In this document: positions 53,311-61,642 of the stretch, piece after piece
Position numbering within the stretch: position 1 is the first letter of the stretch
Layout: every line of letters begins with the position of its first letter
Source: Methylomonas sp. ZR1
GTDB taxonomy: Bacteria > Pseudomonadota > Gammaproteobacteria > Methylococcales > Methylomonadaceae
Assembly (NCBI RefSeq): GCF_013141865.1
Contig: NZ_RCST01000001.1
Coordinates: 4,402,001-4,466,000 of the forward strand
Length of the DNA stretch: 64,000 nucleotides
Direction: 5' to 3'
Translations under genes and position numbers: made by a program
The notes under the pieces: model-generated
Database searches by the model: none
What the model was told of the DNA's origin: nothing
The model's input: the letters and a program-made list of their open reading frames with translations, nothing else

Positions 53311-55476
53311 TCACTCGACGCTGCCCTGCAAACGGGTAATCCAAGCGTCTTTCGCATTCGGGTCAACATGAAACGCCAGCGCCACCGGTTTGTGAAGCAG
53401 GCCGTCCTCGCCGGACGCATTGGGGTTGAGCTGGCGTTTCTCGATAAAATCGATCAAGCGCCGCAGATGGTAAACCAGTAATACCCGATTGCTTTCGCTG
53501 CCTTTGTAGATTAAATAGCCGACGTTGTCTTCACTCAAGTCCGGGTTCCGGGCGATCAGCGCGGTCAATCGGGTTTCGCAATCGCCGGCCAGGCTTTTCA
53601 ACACCGAATCCGGATGCCGGCGGATAAACTCAAGTAGATGCCCGACCAAGTGGCCGGCCAACTGTTGCTGTTGCAATTGCTCCAGCTCGGCATCGCTAAG
53701 CAAAACACTTTCCGCCACCAAATAATGCTTATCCCGCTCACCGTCGTTGGCAAACAGCGAAATTTTCGCCAGCGCTGTGTCTTCAAGGGCATTTAGAAAT
53801 TCTTGCGGCGAACGGATGTGTTTGTCGATGGTGACTACCCAGGGTAAAGCCCGCCCCGTCGCTTCAAAGCGCGATTTGACGCTGCCGATCACGCCGGAGC
53901 GCGACAACTCCAGCTCGCGCCCGACTGGCTTAACTAAAAAGGCATCGACCGCGGCAATCTGAGTGCGAAAGCCGGCAGCTTGAAATTGTTTAATTGCAGT
54001 TGAATAGCGCGGCGAATAGGGAATACCTGTGCCGTCGTAGAGGATATTGATCCGCAGCTCGCGGGCCTGTTGCGCTACCAGGTCGCGCAGGCGGTTGGCG
54101 AACGGTTCGACGTACACGTAGTCGTCGCTATGATGATTGGCGGCGGTCAGCAAACGGTACAGATCGCTGAGCTTTCTGAATTCGTCCAGGGAAGCGATCA
54201 CGAAATTGTCGCCACACTGCGCCGTGGCAATTTCTTCGACTGCGGTTTTGCCGGCACCGGCGCCGCCCATGCTCATCAGAAAATGCGGTTGGTCCACCGG
54301 AGTTTTGCCCGCAAAAATCGCGTCTCGGGCGGCGATTAAAATGCGGCTAATCTTGGCTAAACGCTCGTAGGCAATTTCCACGGTACGGCGCAAGCGCACT
54401 TCGTGACGGGCGGCGACCAGCATTTTTTGTTTTAGGGCTTCGTTGTCCGCCAATAAAAACAGATTGGCTTGCTCGCCGGCGCACTGCTTCAACAAATCCA
54501 TCAATTCGGCCTGGCTGGGGGAGCGCAAGCCGGTGAGCATATTCACGTCCAGGCAAAACAGCGGCGCAACGCCGTCTTCACGAATCGGGATCGCATCGAT
54601 CTCGAATTTGCCGGGGGCGCGCAAATCTTCAGTACCCGGCAGATAGCCGATGATGTGTTCGGACACGCTTAACGGATTATCGGCAAAATGCTGGCCGGCA
54701 ATGAGTTGTTCAGCGGTAATGCTGTTCAAGGGCACCAGGCCGCCGGTCACGGTGATCAAGCATTCCACACCGTCGCCGGTGGTATGCGACAGAAACGGTA
54801 TCCCCAGCAAAAAGCGTTTGTTCTCCGGCCATTTGCCGTAGCGGTTGGCTTGGTTGTGCAGGCTTTTAATCCGCCTGGGATCGAGGGCGTGCGTAAAGGC
54901 GCGGCTCAGCGCCCGGTGTTGACTATTATGATCGTGCAGCACCAAAGCGTCTTCGGCAGCTAGGCGGCGAAAATCGATGCCTTGTTCGTAGACGGCCTTG
55001 AAGGCCGGCAGGTTACCCAGCGCGGTAATGAAAAAATCCAGCGTCATCCGATTGCCGTAGCCATACGGCCGAATGATCCGCAAGGAATGATAAAAGTTGG
55101 CCAGTCGCTCGGCGATGTCCTCGCTGTGGATCACAAAGCCGTTGTTATCGAAAATCGCCGTATCGCTATTGCTGTCGCCATCCAGCACCAAGCGCTCGAT
55201 GGCGACGCGAAACTGTTTGCGCTTATCGGCATCCGGCATCGTGCCGGGCCGGTGCATGACCGTGGGCTGCTCCTTCCAATCGCTGAACATTTCGCGATGA
55301 ATGCGCGAGTACAAGCCGGTCATATAAGTGACGCGCTTGGTCTGGTCGTGCGAGACGGTGATTTCCAGCTCTTGCAACAAGGTCGACAACAGTCCGGCGC
55401 CTTGGGCAATAGCCAGCGCGGTGCGTAGGCGTTTTAGCGGCCTGTAACCCGGAAGATTCCGGCTGGGGTTTTGCAT
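53311..55476 (-). CDS. Large protein with degenerate Fic-like segment and zeta-toxin kinase domain
   Basis: A 721-residue cytoplasmic protein. Near residues 115-160 a helix-loop-helix reads FYHSLRIIRPYGYGNRMTL, close to the Fic motif HPFxxGNGR but with the catalytic His replaced by Arg. From about 390 it has a zeta-toxin-type kinase fold: Walker A GGAGAGKT (404-411), ASLDEFRKL with the zeta catalytic-type Asp431, and ILYDGTG (478-484). Zeta toxins phosphorylate UDP-sugars; this substrate is unknown. No antitoxin-sized gene is adjacent. GAGGGTGG precedes the ATG. Single gene between two operons. Confidence 0.7.
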   Translation of the reverse strand: MQNPSRNLPGYRPLKRLRTALAIAQGAGLLSTLLQELEITVSHDQTKRVTYMTGLYSRIHREMFSDWKEQPTVMHRPGTMPDADKRKQFRVAIERLVLDGDSNSDTAIFDNNGFVIHSEDIAERLANFYHSLRIIRPYGYGNRMTLDFFITALGNLPAFKAVYEQGIDFRRLAAEDALVLHDHNSQHRALSRAFTHALDPRRIKSLHNQANRYGKWPENKRFLLGIPFLSHTTGDGVECLITVTGGLVPLNSITAEQLIAGQHFADNPLSVSEHIIGYLPGTEDLRAPGKFEIDAIPIREDGVAPLFCLDVNMLTGLRSPSQAELMDLLKQCAGEQANLFLLADNEALKQKMLVAARHEVRLRRTVEIAYERLAKISRILIAARDAIFAGKTPVDQPHFLMSMGGAGAGKTAVEEIATAQCGDNFVIASLDEFRKLSDLYRLLTAANHHSDDYVYVEPFANRLRDLVAQQARELRINILYDGTGIPYSPRYSTAIKQFQAAGFRTQIAAVDAFLVKPVGRELELSRSGVIGSVKSRFEATGRALPWVVTIDKHIRSPQEFLNALEDTALAKISLFANDGERDKHYLVAESVLLSDAELEQLQQQQLAGHLVGHLLEFIRRHPDSVLKSLAGDCETRLTALIARNPDLSEDNVGYLIYKGSESNRVLLVYHLRRLIDFIEKRQLNPNASGEDGLLHKPVALAFHVDPNAKDAWITRLQGSVE

Positions 55477-55780
55477 AATCCACCCTCTTATTTTTTATAG
55501 TTATTATTTTCTGGGGCTGATCTTAACCGGTTATTGGCGGAGAAGGAATATTGGCTGAATGTCTTGCAACGGAAAACTACTATTATTGGCGGTTGAGTAA
55601 GTCGGTATGGCATTCCGGCTTGTGAGGACGCTAGTGGGGAGCCAGAGCGCACAGATTCCGCTTGCCTGGAGCGATGTTAGCAGGCTTGAGCGGGATTCTT
55701 TAAAGCCCCCTTGGCGCCTGTCTAGCGAGTACTTTTCAGGTACAATAAACTCATTTTTTATCTATCAAGTGGCTCCCGAC
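55477..55780. other. Promoter interval between the zeta-domain gene and glyQ
   Basis: About 300 bp with divergent flanking genes. It holds GAGGGTGG, the ribosome site of the zeta-domain gene, at the left, and a TACAAT box at 55741-55746 that could be a glyQ -10 element. A frame extending the glyQ start to 55607 has no conserved sequence. No operator symmetry is obvious. Confidence 0.4.
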
Positions 55781-56686
55781 GTGTCGATTAGCAAAAACGA
55801 TGTCTCTACTTTTCAGGGCTTGATTCTGACCTTGCAGGAATACTGGTCGAATCAAGGTTGTGTGTTGTTGCAGCCTTTGGATCAGGAAGTCGGTGCCGGC
55901 ACTTTCCACCCCGCCACGTTCTTGCGCGCCATTGGTCCAGAGCCTTGGAACAGCGCTTACGTACAACCTTCGCGGCGCCCGACCGACGGCCGTTTCGGGG
56001 AAAATCCCAACCGCTTGCAGCATTATTACCAATTTCAGGTAATCATGAAGCCGTCGCCGGACAATATTCAGGAGTTGTACCTGGGATCATTGCGGCATCT
56101 GGGCCTGGATTTGCTGGAACACGACATCCGTTTTGTGGAAGACAACTGGGAGTCGCCAACGCTGGGTGCCTGGGGATTGGGCTGGGAAGTGTGGTTGAAC
56201 GGCATGGAAGTCACCCAGTTTACCTATTTCCAACAAGTCGGCGGCCTGGAATGTCGGCCGGTAAGCGGTGAAATTACTTACGGCCTGGAGCGGATTGCGA
56301 TGTATCTACAAGGCGTGGAAAGCGTTTACGATTTGGTCTGGACCCGCGGTCCGCAAGGCGTTGTGACCTATGGCGACGTGTTCCATCAAAACGAAGTAGA
56401 AATGTCCGAATTCAACTTCGATCACGCTAATGTCGATTTCCTGTTCCAGTGCTTCGACACCTACGAGCGCGAATGCCTGATGCTGCTGGAGAAAAACCTG
56501 CCGCTGCCGGCTTACGAAATGGTCTTGAAAGCCTCCCACTCCTTTAATCTACTCGATGCCCGCCACGCCATTTCGGTCACCGAGCGGCAACGCTACATCT
56601 TACGGGTACGCAACATGGCCAAATCGGTCGCCGAAGCCTATTACGCGCGGCGCGAAAGCTTGGGCTTTCCGATGTGCGGCAATTAA
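55781..56686 (+). CDS. glyQ: Glycyl-tRNA synthetase alpha subunit
   Basis: A 301-residue alpha subunit of the bacterial alpha2-beta2 glycyl-tRNA synthetase: [68 protein letters not shown], and [24 protein letters not shown], all nearly identical to the family. GTG 55781 gives the normal N-terminus; a GTG at 55769 would add four residues. Unusually, glyS does not follow directly: two other genes lie between. Confidence 0.95.
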
Positions 56687-56698
56687 GCGGAACTTAGC

Positions 56699-57769
56699 GT
56701 GAGCGTATTTTTCAATTCAGTAAGAATTCGTAATTTCAAGTCACTGAAAGACGTGACATTGCCGGATTGTAAGCGAATTAATGTACTGATTGGAAAACCT
56801 AATGTCGGTAAATCGAATATATTGGAGGCGATTGGGTTATTTTCACTGCCTTATGTCAAGTACAACAAAGGTAAGAAGCTCACTCAATTCGTTAAGTTGG
56901 AAAATATTGAGGAAATGTTTTTTGATGCAAGCATTCATACAGACATACAAATAGATGTTGATGATGGCAGCTACTGTATTGCTAAATATAACCAAGAAAC
57001 CAATCTTACTGAAATTGAAATTAATTTAGAAAACCAAAAAGTCACTTATGAGCTTTATGGAAACCTTCCTTCTGTTGAAATGCCGACCTCTGAAGGACAC
57101 ACACTCAATATAGATAATAAGCTAAGCATTTTTCATCCATATAAAAAACGTGATTATCCTTCGCCTAAAGTAAGATGTTTTAAATTTCCGCATTCTTTTT
57201 CAACAAAGGAACAAGATCCTTTAATCAAAATTGCTGGGTTAATACCGCCCCATGGCATTAACTTGTTTGACATGGCACAAAAAGATCCGCTCAAACAAGA
57301 ACTGTCCAAGCTATTCCAAGAGTATCGTTTAAAACTTCTTTTCGATAAAACCAGTCACACATTAAGAATCGTTAAAGAACTGGATGACAATTCGCTTGTA
57401 TCTCTACCATTCAATTCAATGGCCGACACATTACAGCGTATTGTCTTTTTCAAAGCCGCGATCGCCTCGAACACCGATTCGATTCTGTTATTCGAAGAAC
57501 CTGAAGCGCATTGTTTTCCGCCTTATATTACCCATATCACTCAGGAAGTGATTGCCGCGCAAACCAACCAGTTCTTTATCGCCACTCATAGTCCTTATGT
57601 GCTGAATGCGTTTTTGGAGCAAAGTCGCGAGGAATTAGCCATATTTATTGTCGATTATCGTGATGGCCAAACCGTTATAAACCGTTTAACCGATACCGAA
57701 TTAAACGAAGTCTACGATTATGGTATTGACGTATTTTTTAACTACGAGCGATTCACGCAACATGGATAA
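56699..57769 (+). CDS. AAA/SMC-type ATPase of a two-gene accessory module
   Basis: A 356-residue ATPase of the OLD/AAA_21 (RecF/SMC-like) type. Walker A is GKPNVGKS (32-39) in the strand after IRNFKSLKDV, Walker B is LLFEEPEAH (263-271), and the H-loop is ATHSP (295-299). The middle region (100-230) is divergent. It starts at GTG, 12 bases after glyQ, and overlaps the next gene by eight bases. DNA here is visibly richer in A+T than the flanking gly genes, which points to acquisition. Likely a defence-type ATPase; unproven. Confidence 0.8.
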   Translation: MSVFFNSVRIRNFKSLKDVTLPDCKRINVLIGKPNVGKSNILEAIGLFSLPYVKYNKGKKLTQFVKLENIEEMFFDASIHTDIQIDVDDGSYCIAKYNQETNLTEIEINLENQKVTYELYGNLPSVEMPTSEGHTLNIDNKLSIFHPYKKRDYPSPKVRCFKFPHSFSTKEQDPLIKIAGLIPPHGINLFDMAQKDPLKQELSKLFQEYRLKLLFDKTSHTLRIVKELDDNSLVSLPFNSMADTLQRIVFFKAAIASNTDSILLFEEPEAHCFPPYITHITQEVIAAQTNQFFIATHSPYVLNAFLEQSREELAIFIVDYRDGQTVINRLTDTELNEVYDYGIDVFFNYERFTQHG

Positions 57770-58280
57770 TCATATTTTGCCTGAGTGTTTTATCGACACT
57801 ATGTTGACCGAAGCTTTGGTGCAAGACATTTTCAAATCCAATCATCAATATGGTTGCAGCACAGTAACCAAAGTCATGCGCGAACGTTTTGCCGACAGTT
57901 TTGCGGTAGGCGTGTTAGATGATGACAAAAAACAAACACCTTATTTAAATGAATTGAACTTAATTTCAGATAAGTCCGGTTTAAAACTGTACAAGCATCC
58001 AGATAAACACCATTATCTGATTTTGCATCCGCCGATTGAGCAATGGCTATTAGATGAAGCGAACACAGCCAATATCGACTTGAGTAACTACCAATTACCC
58101 GGCGAGCGTAGCGCCTTGCAAAAACAAACCAAAACGACTACCAGCAAACACGATCCACGCTTTAAAAGATTATTCCGCGACCTAAAAAGTCGCGAAAGCT
58201 TTAGCCGTTTGTCGAATTGGCTAAGTTATTTAAAACGGCATCCTTACGATGCCTGTATCGAACATTTACAACATTTATAA
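57762..58280 (+). CDS. TOPRIM-like partner protein of the ATPase
   Basis: A 172-residue protein. I do not recognise a named family. An early Glu (HILPECFIDTMLTEALV, Glu8) and a later acidic cluster (AVGVLDDDKK, Asp53-55) have the order and spacing of a TOPRIM-like metal site. The rest contains a YNHQ-like NHQYGCSTVTKVMRERF segment and a Lys/Arg-rich helical end. It starts inside the ATPase stop region (ATGGATAA) and so is translationally coupled. The role, perhaps nuclease or effector, is inferred. Confidence 0.65.
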   Translation: MDNHILPECFIDTMLTEALVQDIFKSNHQYGCSTVTKVMRERFADSFAVGVLDDDKKQTPYLNELNLISDKSGLKLYKHPDKHHYLILHPPIEQWLLDEANTANIDLSNYQLPGERSALQKQTKTTTSKHDPRFKRLFRDLKSRESFSRLSNWLSYLKRHPYDACIEHLQHL

Positions 58281-58303
58281 ACCTTGCAATATAGGCAAAC
58301 GCT

Positions 58304-60373
58304 GTGACTATGACACAAAATTTACTGTTCGAACTGGGCTGCGAGGAATTGCCGCCGAAGTCTTTGAAAAAACTCAGCCAGGCCTTGCTGGACAACATTT
58401 CGGCCGGCTTGCAAGAAGCCGGCTTGAGCTACGACCAAACCCGCGCTTATGCCACGCCGCGCCGCTTGGCGGTATTGATAGACGATCTGCAAACCTTTCA
58501 GGCTGATAAAGTCTTGGAAAAGCGCGGACCGGCCATTCAGGCGGCTTATGGTCCCGACGGTTCACCGAGCAAGGCCGCACTGGGTTTTGCGGCCAGTTGC
58601 GGTGTCGGCTTTGATCAACTTGAAAAATTGGAAACCGACAAAGGTTCTTGGTTGATTTTCAAACAAGCGGTAAAAGGCCAAGCCACTGCCGAGTTGATCC
58701 CCGACATTATCCGCAAAAGTCTGGCCAATTTACCGATTGCCAAACGGATGCGCTGGGGAAGTTTCGATGCCGAATTTGCCCGGCCGGTACATTGGGCGGT
58801 TTTGCTGTTGGGTTCTGAAATTCTGATTACCGATATTCTCGGCCGCACGACCGGTCGCGTCACCCGTGGTCACCGCTTTCATTCACCACTGGATTTGAGC
58901 ATCGGCAGTCCGCACGAATATCTGGATATTCTCAAACAACACGGCAAGGTGCTGGCCGACTTCGAAGAACGCATGACCATCATCCGCGATGCTGCCAATC
59001 AGGCGGCCAGCAATGTTGGCGGCATTGCCCATATCGAAGACGATTTGCTGGAAGAAGTGGCGGCATTAAACGAGTGGCCGGTGCCGGTCGTGGGTAATTT
59101 TGACGCGCGTTTTCTGGAATTGCCGCAAGAAGTGCTGATCACCACCATGCAGGCCAACCAGAAATATTTTCCGGTTAAAAATGCTGCAGGCCGATTGTTG
59201 CCGCATTTCATTACTTTCGCTAATATCGAAAGCTCCAACCCCGATTCCATCCGGCAAGGCAATGAGCGCGTGGTGTTGCCACGCTTGGTCGACGCGGAGT
59301 TTTTCTGGAAACAAGATAGAAAACAATCGCTGGCCGATCGGGTCGAGAGCCTGAAAAGCATCGTTTTCCAAAAAGACTTGGGTACCTTGTTCGATAAAAC
59401 CGAGCGCGTAGCCAAGCTTGCGGCTTTGGTTGCCGAAAAATTGGGCGCCGACGTGGAGCTTGCCAGGCGAGCCGCACTGTTGGCCAAAACCGATTTGATG
59501 ACCAATATGGTCGGCGAATTCGCCAATCTGCAAGGCACGATGGGCCGCTATTACGCCGCTGCGGACGGCGAACATGCCGACGTGGCTTTAGCCTTGGAAG
59601 AACATTATTATCCCAAGCAGTCTGGCGGTGCGACCCCGAGTGGTCAAATCGGGCAGGCGTTGGCGCTGGCGGAAAAAATCGACACCCTGGCCGGTATTTT
59701 CAGCGCAGGCTTGATTCCAACCGGCGACAAAGACCCATACGCCTTGCGTCGAGCCACGCTGGGCATTTTGCGGGTGCTGATCGAAAACGGTATTGCATTG
59801 GATGTCGTCGAACTGCTGGATGCTGCGCTGGATCAGTTCAGTCACGACTTTAATAAAGCCGAAATCCGGCAAAAAGTGATAGGTTTTCTGTTTGACCGTC
59901 TAAAAGGCTATTGTCTGGATCAAGGCTATACCAGCCACGAGTTCGAAGCGGTATTGGCGGTTAATCCGACTAGTCCGTTGGATTTCATGCTGCGTATTCG
60001 CGCTGTGCAAGGTTTTAGAGCCTTGCCGGAAGCAGAAAGTCTGGCGGCTGCAAACAAACGCATTATCAACATCCTGAAAAAATCGGATCAAGCGCCTAAG
60101 GAGATCATTGGCACTTTGGTTGAGATCGCCGAGAAAAACTTGTTGGCTGTCGCTGAGCAATCGGAAACCGATATTTTGCCGTTGTTGGCCGAACAGAATT
60201 ACCCGCTGGCCTTGAGCCGGCTGGCGCAGTTACGCGATAGCGTCGATGCGTTTTTCGATAACGTGATGGTCAATACCGACGACGAAGTTTTACGCAACAG
60301 TCGTTTGGCATTGCTGGCCAAATTGTCCAATCAATTCCTGAAAATCGCCGATATTTCCAAACTGCAATCGTGA
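58304..60373 (+). CDS. glyS: Glycyl-tRNA synthetase beta subunit
   Basis: A 689-residue beta subunit: NLLFELGCEELPPKSLKKLSQALLDNI, the FKQAVKGQ...KRMRWGSFDAEFARPVHWAV core, HRFHSP, and a C-terminal anticodon-binding domain. It works with GlyQ to charge tRNA-Gly. The GTG at 58304 lies eight bases after AGG; an ATG at 58310 is also possible. It overlaps gmhB by four bases (GTGA). Confidence 0.95.
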   Translation: MTMTQNLLFELGCEELPPKSLKKLSQALLDNISAGLQEAGLSYDQTRAYATPRRLAVLIDDLQTFQADKVLEKRGPAIQAAYGPDGSPSKAALGFAASCGVGFDQLEKLETDKGSWLIFKQAVKGQATAELIPDIIRKSLANLPIAKRMRWGSFDAEFARPVHWAVLLLGSEILITDILGRTTGRVTRGHRFHSPLDLSIGSPHEYLDILKQHGKVLADFEERMTIIRDAANQAASNVGGIAHIEDDLLEEVAALNEWPVPVVGNFDARFLELPQEVLITTMQANQKYFPVKNAAGRLLPHFITFANIESSNPDSIRQGNERVVLPRLVDAEFFWKQDRKQSLADRVESLKSIVFQKDLGTLFDKTERVAKLAALVAEKLGADVELARRAALLAKTDLMTNMVGEFANLQGTMGRYYAAADGEHADVALALEEHYYPKQSGGATPSGQIGQALALAEKIDTLAGIFSAGLIPTGDKDPYALRRATLGILRVLIENGIALDVVELLDAALDQFSHDFNKAEIRQKVIGFLFDRLKGYCLDQGYTSHEFEAVLAVNPTSPLDFMLRIRAVQGFRALPEAESLAAANKRIINILKKSDQAPKEIIGTLVEIAEKNLLAVAEQSETDILPLLAEQNYPLALSRLAQLRDSVDAFFDNVMVNTDDEVLRNSRLALLAKLSNQFLKIADISKLQS

Positions 60374-60912
60374 CCGAGCGTTACGTTATTCTCGATCGCG
60401 ACGGCACCATCAATGTCGATTCCGACGACTTTATCAAATCACCGGAAGAATGGCTGCCGCTGGCCGGCAGCCTGGAAGCCATTGCGCTGTTAAATCGGCA
60501 TGGCTACAAAGTCGTGGTGATCACCAATCAGTCCGGGATTGCCAGGGGCTTATTCGATTTGGCAACGCTGGCGGCGATACATGCCAAAATGCTGCAATTG
60601 GCGTCCCTGGCCGACGGACACATAGAAGCCATTTATTTTTGCCCTCACGGCCCAAACGACACTTGTGACTGCCGCAAACCTCTGGACGGTCTGTTTCGGC
60701 GTTTTGCCGCCGATACGCAAGCCAATTTGAGCCGGACTTATGCGATTGGCGATTCCTTGCGCGATATTCGGGCCGCCGAATCGGCCGGTGCCAAACCGAT
60801 TCTGGTCAAAACCGGCAAAGGCAAAAAAACCGCTATTAATAATCCACAACTTAACGTTCCTATTTTCGATAATCTTTATGACGCAGCCACGCACATCGTT
60901 TCGACAAGCTGA
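60370..60912 (+). CDS. gmhB: D-glycero-D-manno-heptose 1,7-bisphosphate 7-phosphatase
   Basis: A 180-residue HAD phosphatase of LPS heptose synthesis. It has ILDRDGTINVDSDDFI with the nucleophile Asp9 and Asp11, VVITNQSGIARG, the zinc-binding CPHGPNDTCDCRKP loop, and YAIGDSLRDIRAAESAGAKPILVKTGKG. GTG 60370 overlaps the glyS stop. The glyS-gmhB-plsC order is common in gammaproteobacteria. Confidence 0.95.
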   Translation: MTERYVILDRDGTINVDSDDFIKSPEEWLPLAGSLEAIALLNRHGYKVVVITNQSGIARGLFDLATLAAIHAKMLQLASLADGHIEAIYFCPHGPNDTCDCRKPLDGLFRRFAADTQANLSRTYAIGDSLRDIRAAESAGAKPILVKTGKGKKTAINNPQLNVPIFDNLYDAATHIVSTS

Positions 60913-61642
60913 TTTCAGAGTCTATTTGGGCTCGACATTGTTATTCATCTACATCGTGTTTTCGACGCTGATTGTTGGTGTAGCCATCTTGGGCGGTTAT
61001 TTCCTGCCGTTTCCGATGCGCTATAAAATTGCCGATATTTGGATCGATTGCCTGCTGTTCATGTTGAAGCTGTGTTGCGGTTTAAGTTATGAGGTGGACG
61101 GGCTGGAGAACATTCCGCGCGATCAAGCGGCGATTATTCTCAGCAAACATCAGTCGGCCTGGGAAACCGTGGCTTTAAGACAGTTTATCTCGCCGCAAAC
61201 CGCGGTTTTGAAAAAATCGTTGCTGCAAATCCCGTTTGGCGGTTGGGCGCTGGCGACATTAAAACCCATCGCGATAGACCGGCAAAATCAGAAAGAAGCA
61301 CTAAAGATGTTGATCGATCAGGGCATCCAGCGTTTGCAGGAAGGCTTGTTCGTGGTGGTGTTTCCGGAGGGAACCCGAGTGGCGCCGGGAGCGCATAAAA
61401 AATTTAATGCGGGCGGTGCAATGCTGGCGCAAAAATCCGGTTTTCCGGTGATTCCGCTGGCGCACAATGCAGGAGAATATTGGCCGCGTAACAGTTTTTT
61501 GAAATATCCGGGCGTGATTAAGGTCAAAATTGGGCCGGTTATCAGTAGCATTGATAAAAAATCGAAGGATATTAACGCAGAGGCCGAAGCCTGGATTAAT
61601 AAAGCGATGTTGCAAATCGATGCAGAACGAATAGCAGGGTAA
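60878..61642 (+). CDS. plsC: 1-acyl-sn-glycerol-3-phosphate acyltransferase
   Basis: A 254-residue inner-membrane acyltransferase that makes phosphatidic acid. One N-terminal helix (TLLFIYIVFSTLIVGVAILGGYFL) precedes the catalytic block. Motif I is HQSAWE at 91-96, with Glu in place of the more common Asp, and motif III is FPEGTR (162-167). ATG 60878 overlaps the gmhB end by 35 bases; an earlier in-frame start would lie inside gmhB without conserved residues. It ends before a bidirectional terminator. Confidence 0.92.
   Translation: MTQPRTSFRQADFRVYLGSTLLFIYIVFSTLIVGVAILGGYFLPFPMRYKIADIWIDCLLFMLKLCCGLSYEVDGLENIPRDQAAIILSKHQSAWETVALRQFISPQTAVLKKSLLQIPFGGWALATLKPIAIDRQNQKEALKMLIDQGIQRLQEGLFVVVFPEGTRVAPGAHKKFNAGGAMLAQKSGFPVIPLAHNAGEYWPRNSFLKYPGVIKVKIGPVISSIDKKSKDINAEAEAWINKAMLQIDAERIAG

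Follow-up and report, generated by a model that had tools for sequence, protein, structure and literature searches.

A predicted two-gene ATPase/TOPRIM-type antiviral module at a cargo hotspot between glyQ and glyS in the Methylomonadaceae

Methylomonas sp. ZR1, a member of the Methylomonadaceae (Gammaproteobacteria), carries two overlapping genes, here called P1 and P2, between glyQ and glyS, the genes for the two subunits of glycyl-tRNA synthetase (GlyRS). The window analysed is the whole 64,000-nucleotide stretch at positions 4,402,001 to 4,466,000 of contig NZ_RCST01000001.1 (assembly GCF_013141865.1). P1 encodes an ABC-type ATPase and P2 a small protein with a TOPRIM-like set of acidic residues, and sequence comparison leads us to give a probability of about 0.6 to the reading that P1-P2 is a two-gene antiviral module of the ATPase-sensor/TOPRIM-effector class, residing at a junction where such modules are gained and lost. 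This ATPase/TOPRIM-like pair appears to be new, since none of the four libraries Pfam, NCBIfam, PADLOC and PHROGs gives a significant match to its small partner. The hotspot is a more surprising part of the finding than the pair itself: it interrupts an essential operon for a two-subunit enzyme, so that cargo would be expressed together with the host translation machinery. Genomes and loci are designated by G and L numbers, the window's genome being G000.

In the family sample, the glyQ-glyS junction is a dedicated hotspot for ATPase/TOPRIM-type pairs. Among the matches listed for the two genes (150 for glyS and 150 for glyQ, in a sample of 201 family genomes), 128 genomes appear in both, and the exclusion of five with the genes on different contigs or strands leaves 123 measured intervals. 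Ninety of these are no longer than 200 bp (median 31), and 33 are occupied by 749 to 3,511 bp. The type-A pair, the term used here for P1-P2 and its relatives, is present in 21 of the 33; the other 12 occupied intervals were read, as were six longer type-A sites, including that of G220, which lies outside the 123. At least one ATPase/TOPRIM-type pair is found in 31 of the 33, in three types that sometimes stand in tandem. Type B consists of an ATPase recognised by the sequence MLKRLYVHNYK and a partner of about 180 aa with LCED, DxD and RNIESWF motifs, and occurs either alone (G169, G053, G108, G102, G075, G158, G133 and G216) or in tandem ahead of type A (G150, G126, G159, G220 and G129). Type C joins an ATPase to a partner of 263–302 aa with VEG, DSD and HEWEN motifs (G125 and G054). 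Other genes also use the slot: a UPF0149/SEC-C gene fills it in G089, a single 602-aa coiled-coil gene, with a weak Pfam SNARE-like match only, does so in G166 (L134:252-2060), and in Methylovulum a gene with a Bro-N domain separates glyQ from the type-A pair (L024:4172-4945 in G179, whose locus L138 encodes the same proteins). The junction therefore shows the pattern by which defence hotspots are recognised, with at least three module types at one core junction that is empty in other genomes, and it predicts where further systems can be sought.

The defence nature of this cargo is taken from library matches. In PADLOC, the type-B ATPase matches HEC-01A (9.4e-27), and of the two type-B partners scanned, that of L132 matches HEC-01B (2.7e-7) and that of L126 matches no model; the type-C ATPase matches AriAB/AriA (1.5e-32) and its partner AriAB (6.1e-6); and the UPF0149/SEC-C gene matches PDC-S12 (1.3e-33). 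The 602-aa coiled-coil and Bro-N genes have no PADLOC match at E ≤ 0.1. A first-pass annotation of the window, made from the sequence alone, had likened the layout of the pair to that of two-gene phage-defence systems, and the sister slots do hold candidates that PADLOC recognises (HEC-01-like, PARIS-like and PDC-S12). Type-A and type-B ATPases align with one another only around Walker A (blastp E 0.043). By profile, the type-B partner is found in 16 of the 201 family genomes, once in each, and all 16 partners precede either glyS or a type-A pair in front of glyS; the matches include a remnant in G138 and, in the 142-bp interval of G199, just the final 28 residues of the protein, and no glyQ was seen upstream in G184 or G138. 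In G184 (L159), the glyS match is split by about 345 extra bases, and the gene may be interrupted. An occupied slot as a general property of glyQ-glyS was considered and rejected: in Escherichia coli, the junction was found in one place (at least 80% of a 1.3-kb query) in every one of the 5,375 genomes that matched, out of 5,426, in a search that could have joined over an insert shorter than about 1.15 kb and in which all 30 rows listed were one piece.

The type-A pair is tied to glyS throughout the family. P2 is found in 28 of the 201 sampled genomes, in 9 of 29 genera, and glyS or a 5' fragment of it lies downstream in 28 of 28. It follows immediately in 26, among them G114, where the fragment matches glyS residues 3-48, and a UPF0149/SEC-C gene intervenes in G065 and G110. 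In 25 of the 28, glyQ precedes the pair on the same contig, in some with further cargo between, the exceptions being G096, G110 and G114. Within the genus, the pair is present in 3 of 25 genomes (G000, G007 and G014), always between glyQ and glyS, which are adjacent in 21 others; in G020 (L060), a glyQ with the tail FPMCGN-stop characteristic of occupied sites is followed by other genes, with neither glyS nor the pair in the 1.5 kb examined. The same arrangement recurs in Methylobacter (L022, with glyQ and glyS matched) and in two Methylovulum metagenome-assembled genomes (MAGs; L023 and L024), so that the placement of the pair between glyQ and glyS is not a matter of chance. In G114 (L086), the pair stands behind a hisD-like open reading frame (ORF), its frame read by eye, and still carries the glyS fragment, as if it had moved out of glyQS together with it. 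In three genomes of genus g17, glyQ is apart from glyS: the two are far apart and on opposite strands in G048 and on different contigs in G114, and in G096 (L088) another gene lies upstream of the pair and glyQ is not next to glyS. In G110 (L092:1-312), a PD-(D/E)xK-type nuclease-like ORF, identified by eye, stands directly upstream of the type-A ATPase.

The sequence of the junction itself carries a record of occupation. At all 37 occupied sites read (the 38 looked at, less that of G129), glyQ ends in GFPMC plus a short tail, whatever the cargo, and its end in the window (GFPMCGN-stop) is of this type. Empty sites in other genera lack that cysteine in 15 of 18 cases and mostly end in QGA-stop or a variant, the codons of which contain an AGGGAG-like ribosome-binding sequence for glyS; both the cysteine and QGA are found at the empty sites of G041, G057 and G062. 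In the same genus, 20 of 22 genomes without the pair have an RQGA-type end, and G019 and G020 have the cysteine-type end. Short intervals in G199 and G167 keep the occupied-type tail FPMCQGS-stop, in G199 along with type-B partner sequence, and look like scars of lost modules. Interrupted or partial modules (L086 and L087 in P1; L131 and L142 in type B; G138; G199), some of which may be assembly errors, fit an accessory function. Exchange through the homologous glyQ and glyS flanks would be the simplest mechanism for this turnover.

P1 falls among the defence-associated ABC ATPases, inside no single named system, as judged by its database matches. It matches AAA_15 (2.1e-16) and AAA_21 (1.4e-14) in Pfam and 121 families in PADLOC, led by AbiLi (2.2e-21, over residues 5-345), PDC-M38A (6.9e-21), AriA (5e-19) and GajA (2.7e-18). 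The best NCBIfam model, the retron Eco8 effector (4e-15), scores 55.5 bits, far under its cut-off of 250, and a sequence search of the PDB finds a chain of the Eco8 OLD nuclease (1e-6, residues 5-49). An AlphaFold2 model of P1 (6 rows) is of low confidence, with a predicted local distance difference test (pLDDT) score of 48.8. Among P1 relatives, the Walker A residues G32, P34, N35, G37, K38 and S39 are at least 97% conserved. Thirty rows were analysed, leaving out two interrupted copies (L086 and L087), a divergent one (L027) and a copy of the window's own (L068), and 28 distinct proteins remained after removal of L069 and L071, second copies of L023 and L024. Mean pairwise identity among the 28 is 0.77 in the N part (residues 1-62) and 0.67 in the C part (191-356), and falls to 0.17 in the core of the middle (78-178).

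The middle of P1, moreover, does not follow its flanks. Eight of the ten pairs of proteins most alike in the C part have a middle identity of 0.20 or less. The window and G014 share 0.87 of the N part, 0.19 of the middle and 0.93 of the C part, and at the DNA level they are 47–53% identical in the P1 middle (67% at its 3' edge) against 80–96% in glyQ, the rest of P1 and P2, and 64–82% in glyS. The closest middle to the window's comes from another genus (G119, 0.56), though the C parts of the two share only 0.65. Ranking by middle and by C part picks the same nearest neighbour in 1 of 28 rows, and ranking by middle and by N part does so in 6 of 28. Spearman correlations of part identities are 0.36 for N and C, 0.19 for middle and C and 0.28 for middle and N, and P2 identity correlates with the C part (0.54) and the N part (0.37) but not with the middle (-0.03). 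A similar low-identity stretch, at about residues 61-150, is seen in the type-B ATPases (9 rows, with L139 left out for its X residues and L132 and L142 not included). Because conserved ends enclose a hypervariable segment that does not track them, the middle can be read as an exchanged sensor, as would be expected of a diversifying recognition segment; a weaker form of the idea would have it diverge fast with occasional exchange. A bolder proposal, for which we would offer somewhat less than even odds, is that type A represents an undescribed family of immune receptors, in which a fixed ATPase chassis would carry an exchangeable cassette (at about residues 63-190) swapped between strains and genera while the P1 ends and P2 stay together, in a slot of an essential operon that would select for ATPase/TOPRIM-type pairs. 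The alignment of natural P1 sequences singles out a short stretch of the protein as the likely sensor, and makes what such systems detect a question directly testable by segment exchange.

For the partner protein, Pfam, PADLOC and PHROGs return nothing at E ≤ 5, and NCBIfam only HpnK at 0.066, taken as chance. The first-pass annotation had remarked that it fitted none of the two-gene defence systems that could be named. Invariant columns in 31 relatives include E8, D12, N27, D53, D55 and H84; in 34 rows drawn from methanotrophs, Bacteroidota and one archaeal provirus, E8, D12, V35, G50, D53, D55, L112 and L157 are invariant. A glutamate in the first strand together with a DxD motif constitutes the acidic signature of TOPRIM domains, and P2 has such a glutamate and such a motif: E8, D53 and D55, picked out earlier in the single sequence, are unchanged in all 34 rows. 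E8 may lie in the first strand, though the model of P2 is of low confidence. Profile comparison by hhalign relates P2 to the type-B partner (E 0.0024, with none of 200 column shuffles as good; E 0.00045 and none of 100 with the provirus row included), pairing DxD with DxD and IExW with IESW. The type-B partner is in turn related to nine RloB (PF13707) proteins over 106 columns (E 0.00071, none of 200 shuffles as good), in a profile built from 9 of 12 extracted ORFs, the other three being wrong overlapping frames, with L174-L178 outside the set. Because profiles join P2 to the type-B partner and the type-B partner to RloB, which we take to be a TOPRIM-type family, P2 can be linked to RloB-type TOPRIM proteins, and its assignment to TOPRIM is probable, if indirect. 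The hidden Markov model comparison proposed in the first-pass annotation thus yielded a link to the type-B partner, but a direct link to RloB that is marginal at best; in Pfam, RloB does not match P2 at E ≤ 5 and is not among the families matched by the 8 members of alignment A1. A sequence search of the PDB returned nothing meaningful for P2 or the type-B partner. A protein of the RloB family (PF13707) is encoded elsewhere in the window's genome, far from this locus, at G000:C1:3544732-3545235 (L173).

In the proposed mechanism, P1 would be an ABC-type ATPase scaffold, co-produced with glyQS from one transcript, that keeps P2 inactive. The variable middle of P1 would recognise a phage product, and ATP binding or hydrolysis would then free or activate P2, a putative metal-dependent nuclease of TOPRIM type using E8, D53 and D55. 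P2 would cut nucleic acid, which might be host tRNA, the target in PARIS, or DNA, the target of OLD enzymes, and infection would stop. Different ATPase/TOPRIM-type pairs would be gained, stacked, eroded and lost at glyQ-glyS, probably by recombination in the conserved flanks. The closest model for this proposed working is PARIS, by mechanism and not by membership: an AriA hexamer holds AriB, a TOPRIM tRNase, until a phage protein triggers its release, as described in one report (PMC12409363), and an ATPase hexamer holding a TOPRIM tRNase is likewise described in another (PMC11455837).

Several observations weigh against this interpretation. The N and C parts of P1 are themselves not fully concordant, their nearest neighbours agreeing in 6 of 28 rows, and noise or general recombination may lie behind part of the discordance of the middle. 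The alignment of P2 with the type-B partner spans 43 columns, with E8 outside, at an hhalign probability of 12% (33% with the provirus row); when P2 is compared directly with RloB, 29 of 200 shuffles score as well if the provirus row is left out, which is not significant, and 1 of 100 if it is included, which is marginal. The AlphaFold2 model of P2 (6 rows, pLDDT 61.8) is too poor to decide the fold, and a PDB fold search with this low-confidence model returned nothing at E ≤ 0.001. At the sensitivity used, plasmids and viral contigs yielded no relative of P2. Both HEC-01 and PDC-S12 have the standing of candidates in the library, and OLD-type ATPases can have non-defence roles, as described for Cran1 (PMC12796447).

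The immediate surroundings of P1-P2 bear on the alternatives. Only 12 nt separate the glyQ stop (56686) from the start of P1, which overlaps P2 by 8 nt; P2 ends 29 nt before the glyS ATG at 58310, and both ORFs are co-directional with glyQ and glyS. Because of the short gap to glyQ, and because promoter- and terminator-like sites around the module occur at chance frequency, P1 and P2 would most simply be transcribed by read-through from the glyQS transcript. The short gap leaves no room for a promoter and, with the overlapping two-gene layout, also suits the best surviving of the alternatives, itself unlikely: an addiction or toxin-antitoxin system in which P2 would be the toxin and P1 an antitoxin-like ATPase, kept by killing on loss or by its ride in an essential operon, with antiviral action secondary or absent. 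PARIS itself has been described as toxin-antitoxin-like (PMC11455837). However, the short intervals in 90 of 123 genomes, the scar-like sites of G199 and G167, the G138 fragment and the interrupted copies in L086, L087, L131 and L142 suggest that loss is tolerated, even if some of these may be assembly errors, and addiction does not predict a variable ATPase middle that is independent of its flanks.

A housekeeping or regulatory function tied to glycyl-tRNA synthetase, whereby the pairs would detect or mend some fault connected with GlyRS or tRNA-Gly, has a slimmer chance. It would account for the location at glyS of every type-A (28 of 28) and type-B (16 of 16) copy found in the family sample and for the sharing of one slot by different ATPase/TOPRIM-type pairs, but the pair is patchy (28 of 201), the UPF0149/SEC-C and 602-aa coiled-coil genes use the slot too, and relatives outside the family lie away from glyQS. 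In Bacteroidota (L025 and L026), the pair is closely flanked by ORFs that look phoH-like and purC-like by eye, and in a Bacteroidales MAG (L027), a P2 relative, itself without a PADLOC match, stands behind an ATPase matching PDC-M29A (1.6e-57). Both proteins are also encoded by GahPV1, an archaeal pleolipovirus provirus of Geoglobus ahangari (L202:2465-3906), where gp15 shares 33.8% identity with P1 over 98% (E 2e-49), gp16 is homologous to P2 (hhalign probability 98.3, E 1.2e-14), and an annotated winged-helix regulator lies on each side. Recurrence beside other genes, suggested as a check in the first-pass annotation, is seen in Bacteroidota and in this provirus. The main text of the report of GahPV1 (PMC10919331), in the part available, contains none of the words ATPase, defence or defense. 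A related extension of the immune-receptor proposal, in which the slot would be functional and the effectors would act on glycine tRNA or the pairs sense lost glycyl-tRNA synthesis, must be considered a long shot.

Beyond these cases, searches returned little. In 369 genomes of the class, the P2 profile found the window's own copy and two weak matches (E 0.0024 and 0.0098) taken as chance, and the type-B partner had no match in 340 class genomes, a sample without any known-positive genome. P2 was not found in phages at E 1e-5, the GahPV1 partner having surfaced only via P1; neither the P1 alignment nor the provirus ATPase matched any viral contig, and the type-B partner had no match in plasmids. 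In plasmids, P1 gave one partial match, a 158-aa ATPase ORF of Parabacteroides with no P2-like gene among its annotated neighbours. A DUF3226 search matched 2 of 143 genomes and was not used further.

Low GC content marks the module. At 0.381, against 0.539 in glyQ and 0.524 in glyS, it has the lowest value among 1,249 windows of the same length across the 64 kb, and each of the 25 other carriers checked also has an AT-rich module, in a comparison of P2 plus 1,000 bases upstream with 1.4 kb of downstream flank (25 of the 28 carriers, without the window, L092 and L093; the flank of L086 is mostly not glyS). Low GC is hence a trait of the module. In a P2 tree of 25 of the 28 rows (L086 left out, along with L092 and L093, where glyS is short), the three same-genus copies form one branch with support 100, copies of genera g23, g30 and g32 fall in both of two deep lineages, and genus labels require 9 changes against a minimum of 7, which the glyS tree reaches; this suggests long residence with some exchange, and not rampant transfer. 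The AT-rich composition and position of the module between glyQ and glyS had been noted in the first-pass annotation and taken to suggest transfer. Its accessory, patchy character stands, and the pair is neither present in all close relatives (3 of 25) nor of normal GC, the combination named there as contrary evidence, but low GC and position do not show recent transfer, the same slot being used in several genera. The notion that this strain newly acquired the pair as a foreign AT-rich element, which the extreme GC and the small number of same-genus carriers would favour, is accordingly set aside as very improbable, given the shared slot across genera, the AT-rich state of all other carriers checked, the single branch of same-genus copies, and the lack of an integrase recognisable by eye (among ORFs listed for window positions 54000-61500), of a tRNA in the window (ARAGORN) and of flanking direct repeats of at least 14 nt.

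Returning to the antiviral reading, the type-A pair can be compared with known systems, and appears to belong to none of PARIS, AbiL or OLD/Gabija, since either the partner or the gene layout differs. As in PARIS (AriA and AriB), an ABC ATPase and a separate partner, in P2 a putative TOPRIM protein, are encoded by adjacent genes, and in two sister genomes the slot is taken by type C, which is PARIS-like; AriA is, however, only third among the models matched by P1, behind AbiLi and PDC-M38A, and P2 matches no family in PADLOC or Pfam at E ≤ 5, whereas the type-C partner (302 aa, L135) matches AriAB. As regards AbiL, P1 is homologous to the AbiLi ATPase, as it is to many other families, but the partner does not correspond to AbiLii, P2 having no match in PADLOC, which presumably holds AbiLii models. 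HEC-01, which type B resembles, has a small TOPRIM-like partner behind an ATPase of about 365 aa, and P2 is tied by profile to the type-B partner but lacks an HEC-01B match. HECs are Hma-embedded candidates, several with demonstrated activity (HEC-06 being named), and PDCs are unvalidated, as described in PMC12988326. With RloB, P2 shares the DxD and [IF]ExW motifs paired by hhalign, but it has no Pfam match and the significance is marginal. P1 belongs to the same ATPase superfamily as OLD, Gabija and retron-Eco8 proteins, in which ATPase and TOPRIM are fused in one polypeptide (PMC10568477), with a GajB helicase beside it in Gabija; here they are two separate ORFs with glyQ and glyS as neighbours. 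Among the papers listed in literature searches with preprints outside their scope, none joined glyQ or glyS with phage defence, and none of those listed for aminoacyl-tRNA synthetase, core genes and TOPRIM contained the synthetase term.

The features of the locus are listed in Table 1. The GTG-started ATPase with its GKPNVGKS, LLFEEPEAH (residues 263-271) and ATHSP (295-299) motifs, and the overlapping ORF of 172 residues with its acidic positions, lie where they had originally been annotated.

Table 1. Coordinates of glyQ, glyS and the P1-P2 module, with the positions of selected motifs, numbered from the first nucleotide of the window.
Feature	Position	Strand	Remarks
glyQ (glycyl-tRNA synthetase alpha), upstream flank	55781..56686	+	start codon position inferred from relatives
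P1, ABC-type (AAA_15/AAA_21) ATPase, 356 aa, GTG start	56699..57769	+	
P1 Walker A, residues 32-39, GKPNVGKS	56792..56815	+	
P1 hypervariable middle, residues 63-190, proposed exchangeable sensor segment	56885..57268	+	core 78-178, mean pairwise identity 0.17
P1 Walker B region, residues 262-269, ILLFEEPE	57482..57505	+	
P2, 172-aa TOPRIM-like putative effector, ATG start	57762..58280	+	
P2 E8, invariant acidic residue, TOPRIM-like first position	57783..57785	+	
P2 D53-D54-D55, DxD motif; D53 and D55 invariant	57918..57926	+	
P2 IEQW, residues 92-95; paired by hhalign with IESW of the type-B partner and FExW of RloB	58035..58046	+	
glyS (glycyl-tRNA synthetase beta), downstream flank	58310..60373	+	ATG 58310, alternative GTG start 58304

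Upstream of glyQ, on the minus strand (window positions 53311-55476), a 721-aa protein is encoded in which a P-loop (GAGKTAVEE) and a zeta-toxin-like stretch can be recognised by eye.

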